In this document: one piece after another, positions 30,374 through 34,985 of the stretch
Numbering within the stretch: the first letter of the stretch is position 1
Layout of the letters: every line of letters starts with the position of its first letter
Source of the DNA: Bacteroidota bacterium
GTDB lineage: Bacteria; Bacteroidota; Bacteroidia; UKL13-3
DNA length: 64,000 nucleotides
Direction of reading: 5' to 3'
NCBI GenBank assembly: GCA_027491355.1
Contig: JAIXWI010000030.1
Coordinates: 62,001-126,000 of the forward strand
Notes under the pieces: generated by a model
Told to the model about the DNA's origin: nothing
The model's input: only the letters and a program-made list of their open reading frames with translations
Databases searched by the model: none
Position numbers and translations under genes: made by a program

Positions 30374-30592
30374 TTATTTATACCTGTATATAATTCTTCC
30401 TTTACTTAAATCATATGGAGACATTTCTACTGAAACCTTGTCACCTGGCAAGATTTTAATATAATGCATCCTCATTTTTCCTGAAATATGGGCAATGATT
30501 TCATGTCCATTTTCCAATCGTACCCGAAACATAGCGTTACTAAGTGATTCCGTGATAGTACCGTCTTGTTTTATGAGTGCTTGTTTTGTCAT
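30374..30592 (-). CDS. infA: translation initiation factor IF-1
   Basis: A 72-residue OB-fold factor that occupies the ribosomal A site during initiation. Starts [19 protein letters not shown]; diagnostic [20 protein letters not shown] and [12 protein letters not shown]. The ATG at 30592 is the family start; a longer open frame upstream adds non-homologous residues. It follows secY directly, with no map gene between. Confidence 0.97.
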
Positions 30593-30648
30593 ATTTACCT
30601 TAAAAGGGTTGCAAAGATAGTCAAATAATTGATAAATCAATAATTCTT

Positions 30649-32016
30649 CTACTGAGCAGCTCCTCCTCCTACTGCCGATCTTCCTTTAATTCTTCCTGAT
30701 TTCATTAAACCATCATAATGACGCATCATTAAATGACTTTCTACTTGCTGTAAAGTATCAAGCACAACACCCACTAGAATCAATAATGATGTACCACCAT
30801 AGAACTGTGCAAATTGGTTATTGATGTTCAAAACATTGGCCAATGATGGCATAATTGCAACTATGGCTAAGAATACAGCTCCAGGCAATGTAATTCTAGA
30901 CATAACGTTGTCAATGAAATCTGCAGTAGCTTTTCCAGGTTTAACTCCAGGTATGAAACCACTGTTTCTTTTCATGTCATCTGCAATTTGAACAGCGTTT
31001 ACTGAAATGGCAGTATAAAAATAAGTGAAGATGATAATCAAAAGTGCGAAAGTAATGCTGTAAGTCCAACTAGTTGGGTTAATGAAAGCAGCTATTACTC
31101 CTTGCATAGACTCATAGTTAGGAAAGAACTGTGCAACTGTAGAAGGTATGAACATTAATGCTTGCGCAAAAATGATTGGCATTACACCTGCAGCATTCAC
31201 TTTTAAAGGAATGTACTGACGAACACCGCCGTATTGACGGTTACCTACTACCCTTTTAGCATACTGAACTGGAATTCTTCTTGTACCTTGAACCAATAAG
31301 ATAGTCATCATGATTACTCCGAACAATGCTGCCAATTCAACTAAGAAAATAACCAAACCTCCACCACTTTCTGATAATTTAAAAATAAATTCATCTTTCA
31401 AAGCAAAAGGTAAGCGCGCAATGATACCAATCATAATAATTAATGAAATTCCATTTCCGATTCCTTTTTCTGTGATTCGCTCACCTAACCACATGATGAA
31501 CATGGTGCTTGATGTTAAAATTACAATTGAACTCATCATGAAAAAGAAATCTGACATTGCAGCTGGATTTGTCATTGACAAAACTGCTTGTGGATTTTCA
31601 GATTTGAGGTTTATCAAGAATCCAATAGATTGAACTGCTGTGATTGCAATTGTTAGGTACCTGGTGATTTGATTGATTTTTCTTCTGCCTTCCTCACCTT
31701 CTTTTTGCATCTTCTGGAAAGAAGGAACAGCTAAGCTCAATAATTGAACTACAATTGATGCAGAAATGTAAGGCATGATACCCAAGGCAAATATAGATCC
31801 ACGGGCAAAAGCACCTCCGGCAAACATGTTAATTAAACCGAAAATTCCTCCATCTGCTTGTTTGGCAGAACCTTCTAACAAATTCGCATCTACACCTGGC
31901 AATGTAATATAAGTTCCTACTCTGTAAGCTAATAAAAGCCAAAAAGTCAATGCAAGTTTATAACGAAGTTCCTCTATACGAAGAATGTTCTGGAATGTTT
32001 CTATTATTTTCTTCAC
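30649..32016 (-). CDS. secY: preprotein translocase subunit SecY
   Basis: A 455-residue inner-membrane channel with ten predicted transmembrane helices. Family motifs: [16 protein letters not shown] in helix 1, the plug region with [44 protein letters not shown], and [12 protein letters not shown] in the cytoplasmic loop. The C-terminus ends with a Gly/Ala-rich tail. Lies between rplO and infA as the last part of the spc cluster. Confidence 0.98.
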
Positions 32017-34191: not shown

Positions 34192-34590
34192 TTAATAAAT
34201 GTAACACAATACTTCACCACCAACATTTAATTTCCTAGCTTCTTTGTCAGTCATTACACCTTTAGAGGTAGTAACGATGGCAATACCCATACCATTGATG
34301 ACTCTAGGCATGGTTTCTACACCTGTATATCTTCTTAAACCTGGACGACTGATGCGTTCCATTTTCTTGATAGCAGAAGTTTTGGTAACAGGATTGTACT
34401 TTAATGCAATTTTGATAGTACCTTGATGGTTCACAACATCTTCAAATTTGTAGTTTAAGATGTAACCTTTTTCAAATAGTACTCTTGTGATTTCCTTCTT
34501 GATTTTAGAGGAAGGTACTTCTACAATACGATGGCTTGCCTTGATCGCGTTGCGAAGTCTTGTTAAATAGTCTGAAATTGGATCTGTCAT
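34192..34590 (-). CDS. rpsH: 30S ribosomal protein S8
   Basis: A 132-residue primary 16S-rRNA-binding protein and, in E. coli, the translational repressor of the spc operon. N-terminus TDPISDYLTRLRNAIKA; C-terminal RNA-binding signature GMGIAIVTTSKGVMTDKEA and GGEVLCYIY. It is preceded by the longest spacer in the superoperon (125 bp after rpsN), which folds into two stem-loops and may be a regulatory target. Confidence 0.98.
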   Translation of the reverse strand: MTDPISDYLTRLRNAIKASHRIVEVPSSKIKKEITRVLFEKGYILNYKFEDVVNHQGTIKIALKYNPVTKTSAIKKMERISRPGLRRYTGVETMPRVINGMGIAIVTTSKGVMTDKEARKLNVGGEVLCYIY

Positions 34591-34611
34591 ATGTTTTATT
34601 TTTATCCTTGC

Positions 34612-34635
34612 GAGTAGTTAGCCAAGGCTTTACTC
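34612..34635 (-). promoter_or_regulatory. stem-loop in the rpsH leader (rpsH-proximal)
   Basis: Outer helix GAGTA / TACTC and inner helix AGC / GCT with a small apical loop and an unpaired A/AAC-type internal loop between, all just 22 bp before the rpsH ATG. Shape (short helix, internal loop, short helix) is the kind of site recognised by S8; this is inference from position and shape only. Confidence 0.4.
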
Positions 34636-34663
34636 TTTCCCGCTAAGTGTTATTATGTAAAAT

Positions 34664-34698
34664 TAAGGGCAGCGAATATAAGTAAAATTCGGCCCTTA
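34664..34698 (-). promoter_or_regulatory. bulged stem-loop between rpsN and rpsH
   Basis: Seven-bp helix TAAGGGC / GCCCTTA stacked through a 2-nt one-sided bulge on a five-bp helix CGAAT / ATTCG, with a 9-nt loop: 12 bp in all. On the minus strand it is followed by only a weak T stretch (AATTTTAC), so a pure terminator is less likely than an attenuator, processing site or protein-binding structure. Confidence 0.5.
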
Positions 34699-34715
34699 TC
34701 AAATTTATTTTTAGC

Positions 34716-34985
34716 TTACCAGCTTGATTTAGTTACTCCTGGTATTTTGCCCATGTTGGCTAATTCACGAAACTGATTTCTACAAATACCGAAATCTCTC
34801 ATGTATCCCTTAGGACGACCACTTAATTTGCAACGATTCTTTAACCTTACTGGTGAAGCATTTTTAGGTAATTTTTGTAAACCTTCAAAATCACCAGCTG
34901 CTTTTAAAGCTGCTCGTTTAGCTGCAAACTTGGCAACCATTTTTTCTCTTTTACGCTGACGTGCTTTTACTGACTCTTTAGCCAT
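34716..34985 (-). CDS. rpsN: 30S ribosomal protein S14 (zinc-independent form)
   Basis: An 89-residue long-form S14 without the CxxC...CxxC zinc ribbon of the short form. Diagnostic C-terminal block [20 protein letters not shown] and [19 protein letters not shown]. Follows rplE by 10 bp; a 125-bp structured spacer separates it from rpsH. Confidence 0.98.

Follow-up and report, generated by a model that had tools for sequence, protein, structure and literature searches.

What does the long gap between rpsN and rpsH contribute to the ribosomal superoperon of an uncultured Bacteroidota bacterium, and is it concerned with the control of S8, whose gene it precedes? The superoperon lies on the minus strand of the analysed window (the whole stretch of 64,000 nucleotides), and S8, S14, L6, L5, L18 and L24 were named among its products by Pfam. 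The gene 5' of the spacer, rpsN (S14; 34716-34985 in the ORF list; PF00253, E 5.5e-28), ends at 34716 and rpsH (S8; 34192-34590; PF00410, E 4.7e-49) starts at 34590, both on the minus strand, which leaves 125 bp between them. A first-pass annotation of this DNA had singled out the gap as the outlier of the superoperon, and rightly so: the remaining gaps read off the ORF list are of 47 bp or less, that between rplX and rplE being 3 bp. The S8 protein of the window shares 44% identity with that of E. coli and retains TSKGVMTD.

When folded as a single sequence, the whole 125-bp spacer does no better than its shuffled versions (z -0.55; 53 of 200 shuffles equally good), so the case depends on the comparison with relatives. 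Searches with the S8 protein provided 80 named loci, and S8 loci were also found in 55 of the 64 genomes of the source family (families are given here as codes, the source family being f1). The genomes compared are mostly metagenome assemblies. The rpsN-rpsH spacers, ranging from 58 to 151 nt, were read in all 55 f1 genomes with an S8 locus.

Alignment, tree and covariance model delimit an S8-type leader element at 34607-34647 (minus strand), which is present in 45 of the 55 f1 genomes with a readable S8 locus. It is built as a hairpin in which an asymmetric internal loop separates the outer stem from a short upper stem, itself capped by a loop. The outer stem pairs 34638-34647 with 34607-34615 and has one bulged A; the core consists of AAG (34635-34637) and AACU (34616-34619), AAG preceding ACU by 19 nt; the upper stem, AGU/GCU (corresponding to 598-600 with 638-640 of 16S rRNA), and its loop occupy 34620-34634 according to the RNAalifold prediction. 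The outer stem ends 16 nt 5' of the rpsH ATG and adjoins an A-rich translation start region (34591-34606, minus strand). From the last U of the core to the ATG, the distance is 22-31 nt in all 45 element-bearing genomes. Concerning the remaining f1 genomes, no recognisable element was found in the rpsN-rpsH spacer of genus g14 (5 genomes), and g4, g5 and g12 (5 genomes) have just an AAAGT..NAACT variant, rejected by both the exact and the relaxed descriptors described below.

The 34 distinct copies from f1 gave a clean alignment (A1), in which the letters AAG, GT, CT and ACT, in that order, are invariant and the base preceding ACT is only A or T. Over the whole structure, 93.1% of the cells are paired vs. 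83.5% in shuffles, 60 cells show two-sided compensation vs. 15.5 expected, and the covariation is 0.372 vs. 0.168; none of 500 shuffles reached these three values. Two other counts, of pairs that show a two-sided change (7) and of further pair types (17), are not unusual, 71 and 278 of the 500 shuffles, respectively, being as high. Sliding the partner arm by 1-3 columns lowers the pairing to 20-53%. On a tree built from the coding DNA that lies upstream, parsimony gives 25 two-sided pair-to-pair changes, all of them in the outer stem, and RNAalifold, given A1 alone, recovers the identical two stems and internal loop. The first-pass annotation had proposed this very comparison of related spacers, and had named a lack of conserved pairing, or unrelated spacers of the same length, as what would speak against its idea; both were looked for, and the pairing of the outer stem proved to be conserved.

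The upper stem is nearly invariant, and only in genus g13 is it altered yet retained. With so little variation in the inner helix, the evidence for its pairing comes from three g13 genomes, which exchange the loop and the inner stem and keep AAG.GT and CTTACT, together with the match to 16S rRNA considered below. The inner GCC/GGC letters of A1 are conserved beyond the S8 core and, among the copies examined from outside g13, the free RNA is predicted to favour an alternative inner pairing by 0.1 to 2.2 kcal/mol. A pairing of AGU with ACU as 596-598, topped by a GCC/GGC hairpin, was favoured at first and then dropped, g13 supporting AGUUG/CAACU and RNAalifold giving the other pairing; AGU/ACU is a possible free state of the leader. 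As for the second helix that had been annotated at 34612-34635, a conserved structure does exist there, but it is longer than thought and paired otherwise: the implied GAGUA/UACUC pairing, which also appears in the MFE fold, was rejected, its outermost pair forming in 7 of the 34 rows of A1 and the next in 14. To judge from the aligned sequences, the core is flanked by two real helices, the outer one compensated and the upper one with the weaker support.

The primary S8 site is helix 21 of 16S rRNA, the published core of which comprises the triples A595-(A596-U644) and (G597-C643)-U641, plus the invariant A642 (PMC4176348). The leader core AAG ... (A/T)ACT reproduces A595 A596 G597 and N641 A642 C643 U644 letter for letter in 34/34 distinct leaders, with an identical set and order of bases; the 5' side carries one additional base and the 3' side two. 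The comparison with helix 21, also suggested by the first-pass annotation, was thus positive, and the likeness extends from the core letters to their spacing, the strand order and the presence of a stem on either side. The leaders differ from helix 21 in their outer and upper stems, which are unrelated to it in sequence, in the shortness of the upper stem (only 3-7 pairs) and in having A or T at 641. In f1 itself, helix 21 reads AAGTC ... GAAACTG in 15/15 aligned 16S genes or fragments, from 14 genomes, and position 641 of the leaders does not track that of the 16S. All 15 rows (L173-L188) have A at 641, and T (GATACTG) occurs in six genes of f15, f37, f40, f54 and f61. In one f1 genome (L182, G051), the 16S match has a score of 988 and a helix 21 region that does not resemble that of f1; it seems to be foreign, probably through contamination of the assembly.

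The element is specific to its site in the source genome, where the covariance model R1 has a single match at E values up to 10, namely the site itself before rpsH (E 4.2e-13). Among 395 genomes of the class, R1 matched 11 of the 16 f1 members drawn, with two weak matches elsewhere (E 0.015 and 0.064; L206 and L207), which were taken as chance since their flanking ORFs do not look like rpsH. An exact descriptor, which demands the unaltered core between stems of no fewer than 4 and 3 pairs, was fixed after the f1 sequences had been seen, its letters coming from the published rRNA site; it matched 44 of the 55 f1 spacers vs. 0.36% of shuffled spacers, and recovered helix 21 itself in 14 of 16 rRNA loci. 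On both strands of the whole 64-kb window it has 9 matches, four of them on the minus strand, including the rpsH-leader site; another minus-strand match, at 30619-30665, overlaps the junction of the ORFs at 30374-30640 and 30649-32016. With Rfam 15 at the gathering threshold, no match was found in the window or in 20 loci of several lineages, the best matches below threshold being to unrelated families (E of at least 0.4).

Outside f1, the exact descriptor was found in 6 of 71 Bacteroidota spacers vs. 0.14% of shuffles: two from Empedobacter, one from Faecalibacter, one from Apibacter, one from 'bacterium P3' and one from a Bacteroidales genome. Versions of the element thus occur beyond the source family, which is one correction to the first-pass annotation. 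In Empedobacter brevis (L070) and Faecalibacter rhinopitheci (L075), a promoter-like sequence and the element lie directly 5' of rpsH and no S14 gene was found upstream, which indicates that the element goes with rpsH rather than with rpsN. In three Empedobacter and Faecalibacter loci (L066, L068 and L076), a hairpin with a long T-run comes right after rpsN, followed by a promoter-like site and then by the S8-type element, so that rpsH, to judge from its sequence context, seems to head a separate transcription unit.

A further set of 116 genomes from 50 families outside f1 has rpsN-rpsH gaps of at least 40 nt in 56 cases and of less than 40 nt in 60; many Bacteroidia thus have little room for an element before rpsH. 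A relaxed descriptor matched 29 of the 56 longer gaps vs. 4.2 expected from shuffles, a count that is overstated since several matches are plainly poor (the best of L127, L231, the best of L232, L229 and L286); an earlier form of it had matched 5 of 71 spacers vs. 2.1 expected. The relaxed matches are mainly of two kinds, A-GG/AACC (f14, f40) and A-UU/AACA (f6, f7, f18, f20, f27, f37, f41). In the A-UU/AACA set, the upper stem covaries (12 two-sided cells vs. 3.1 shuffled), and just 4 of 19 have a standard pair at the place of 597-643; in the MAFFT alignment of the A-GG/AACC set (A3), the groups are out of register. These wider cases are suggestive, and are not established as S8 sites.

Two other arrangements were observed in these gaps. 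In those of the f14 or Cyclobacteriaceae type (L023, L024, L027, L028, L134, L225, L226), the A-GG/AACC core lies far 5' of a promoter-like sequence, TATCTTTGCAGCCCG, and a T-run hairpin comes after the latter, right at the inferred start site. In L140, L269, L270, L257, L280 and L286 (f32, f57, f67, f78), rpsH is preceded by another kind of conserved hairpin, TTAAATATTGTC..GGATYAATTTAA; it was rejected as an S8 site, since no fit to the S8 core could be made by hand.

A bolder reading covers the Bacteroidia as a whole. An S8 operator before rpsH would control the lower half of the superoperon, and would have been either retained or acquired anew, its core coming in several dialects: A-AG/WACU in f1, Empedobacter, Faecalibacter and Apibacter, A-GG/AACC in f14, f40 and two Flavobacteria-type genomes, and A-UU/AACA in seven families; moreover, the free f1 leader would adopt the alternative inner fold and be switched to the helix-21 fold by S8. 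We hold this combined reading as tentative, and a little more doubtful than credible.

The upstream part of the spacer carries another kind of signal. TTTG at 34700-34703 and TATATTCG at 34673-34680 (minus strand), separated by 19 bases, are likely -33 and -7 promoter elements, one mismatch away from the Bacteroidota consensus TTTG / TANNTTTG (PMC6847099). The corresponding -7 pattern, TAHHTTYGC, occurs in 41 of the 55 f1 spacers vs. 0.8% of shuffled ones, and in 28 of the 55 an exact TTTG lies 19-21 nt from it. TTTG-N19-TATATTCG is therefore likely to be an internal promoter of the Bacteroidota kind, as predicted from sequence; by the F. johnsoniae numbering given in PMC6847099, transcription would start near 34668. 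It resembles the promoters of the Bacteroidota primary sigma factor in the -33 and -7 elements 19 nt apart, here placed 5' of the S8-type element, and differs from them in the C as seventh base of the -7 element and in an inverted repeat over that element.

This inverted repeat is the 12-bp bulged stem-loop of the first-pass annotation, and the description was accurate: the predicted fold spans exactly 34664-34698 (minus strand), with 12 pairs and a 2-nt bulge, and is conserved in f1. The first hairpin is nevertheless a thing apart from the S8-type element, and its right arm overlaps the -7 element as well as the inferred start of transcription. When only the left arm is shuffled, its z-score is -3.5 in the window, with a median of -2.9 in f1 and values below -2 in 35 of 41 distinct segments. 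Swapping arms between genera gave mixed results (own pairs -10.6 to -18.1, others -12.35 on average), which leaves the left-arm shuffles as the support for the repeat; in its MAFFT alignment (A4), the groups are out of register. One g2 genome (L116) has 12 unbroken outer pairs in this repeat. A transcript beginning near 34668 would not include the left arm, and the hairpin could then form solely in read-through RNA, or else be present as a palindrome of the DNA; it is possibly an operator, a terminator or an RNA end structure. Promoter and S8-type element are separable, since the three g13 genomes have no match to the -7 element and keep the S8-type element in gaps of 78-85 nt.

Taken together, these observations make the S8-autoregulation idea of the first-pass annotation well supported at the level of sequence, through the helix-21 core and the compensated outer stem. 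With good confidence, the spacer can be said to carry an S8-binding RNA element, a candidate S8 operator that mimics rRNA in the 5' leader of rpsH, which probably enables the cell to lower its synthesis of S8 once the supply suffices. The leader RNA would be made mainly from the internal promoter just 5' of it, and read-through RNA from the upper superoperon would contain it as well. Free S8, when more is made than there is 16S rRNA to take it up, would attach to this imitation of helix 21, and the S8-bound hairpin could bar the 30S subunit from the A-rich start region. Translation of rpsH would thereby be lowered and, by coupling, also that of the downstream genes (rplF, rplR and so on). Translational control is favoured because no terminator-like site was found between the element and rpsH. 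S8 might also shift a two-state hairpin, a conjecture that stems from the predicted preference of the examined non-g13 copies for the other inner pairing when free. We infer that the promoter is active, that S8 binds the leader and represses, and that repression is steric.

Several other explanations of the spacer can be weighed against this candidate S8 operator. The element might be a regulatory or stabilising rpsH hairpin that serves a different ribosomal protein or an RNase instead of S8, or that has no partner at all, its match to helix 21 being accidental. The slightly better free energy of the alternative inner pairing in most copies and the conservation of the inner GCC/GGC letters beyond the S8 core would fit such a hairpin; the invariant letters, however, coincide with those making the contacts of the S8 site or giving it its shape (PMC4176348), they survive in g13 the exchange of the loop and inner stem, and the exact core also stands before rpsH in other genera. 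We regard this explanation as unlikely. Mere chance folding of AT-rich DNA would agree with the poor folding of the whole spacer, but it has next to no probability: the element combines covariation and conservation with a single genomic copy, and for it chance folding is refuted by the compensatory counts.

Should the gap hold just an internal promoter and its leader sequence, with no protein regulation, the frequent -7 element would be explained, as would the promoter-like sequences in the same gap of other families. This is very unlikely, and was already weakened by the compensated outer stem, which promoters do not need, and by g13, in which the element persists without a promoter match. 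It is also quite unlikely that the structures represent a terminator or an RNA processing site dividing the upper from the lower operon. In its favour are the conservation of the first hairpin, the presence of that hairpin in read-through RNA only, as predicted, and the T-run hairpin that follows rpsN and precedes a new promoter in Empedobacter and Faecalibacter (L066, L068, L076). A consensus scan, however, found no terminator-like site in 34500-34800, in agreement with the first-pass annotation, which had thought a terminator less likely in view of the weak T-run; moreover, a terminator or processing site could account for the first hairpin, not for the S8-type element.

The candidate S8 operator thus remains the preferred reading, and it can be compared with known systems. 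Eckert and Weinberg (2020; PMC7247131) described candidate Bacteroidota ribosomal leaders for L13, S4, S15 and S16, which likewise act in cis and precede genes for ribosomal proteins, in Bacteroidia and Flavobacteria; no S8 leader appears in the part of the table covered here, and the terms 'uS8' and 'rpsH' are absent from the main text. An S8 leader in Bacteroidota was not found in the literature searched, which included parts of PMC7247131, PMC10931766, PMC2704228 and PMC11109978; subscription papers being mostly outside its scope, this is no proof of absence.

The closest counterpart is the spc operator of E. coli, which is also placed in the operon encoding S8 and also mimics helix 21, with AAG and N-A-C-U strands, A595/A596-U644, G597-C643 and A642. 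In the spc mRNA of E. coli K-12, AAACU is read at +7 to +11 and AAG at +80 to +82, positions that fit the A+80-(A+81-U+11) triple named in PMC4176348, and there is also an A at the place of 641. The two systems differ in position, the E. coli operator lying at the start of rplE (the L5 gene) and the candidate operator before rpsH. The exact descriptor found no element in the 33-nt rpsN-rpsH gap of E. coli and, conversely, the source genome has none at the start of rplE, its sole R1 match being before rpsH. They also differ in strand order: AAACU comes first in E. coli, AAG following about 70 nt later, whereas AAG comes first here, as in 16S rRNA. Because the candidate operator stands at another gene and has its strands in the 16S order, S8 rRNA mimicry before rpsH probably arose, as far as sequence comparison goes, independently of the E. 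coli spc site. The element thus provides a concrete and testable S8 site for the Bacteroidota, and the exact core in named Empedobacter and Faecalibacter strains makes it testable in culturable bacteria; its differences from E. coli in gene and strand order point to an independent invention of rRNA mimicry.
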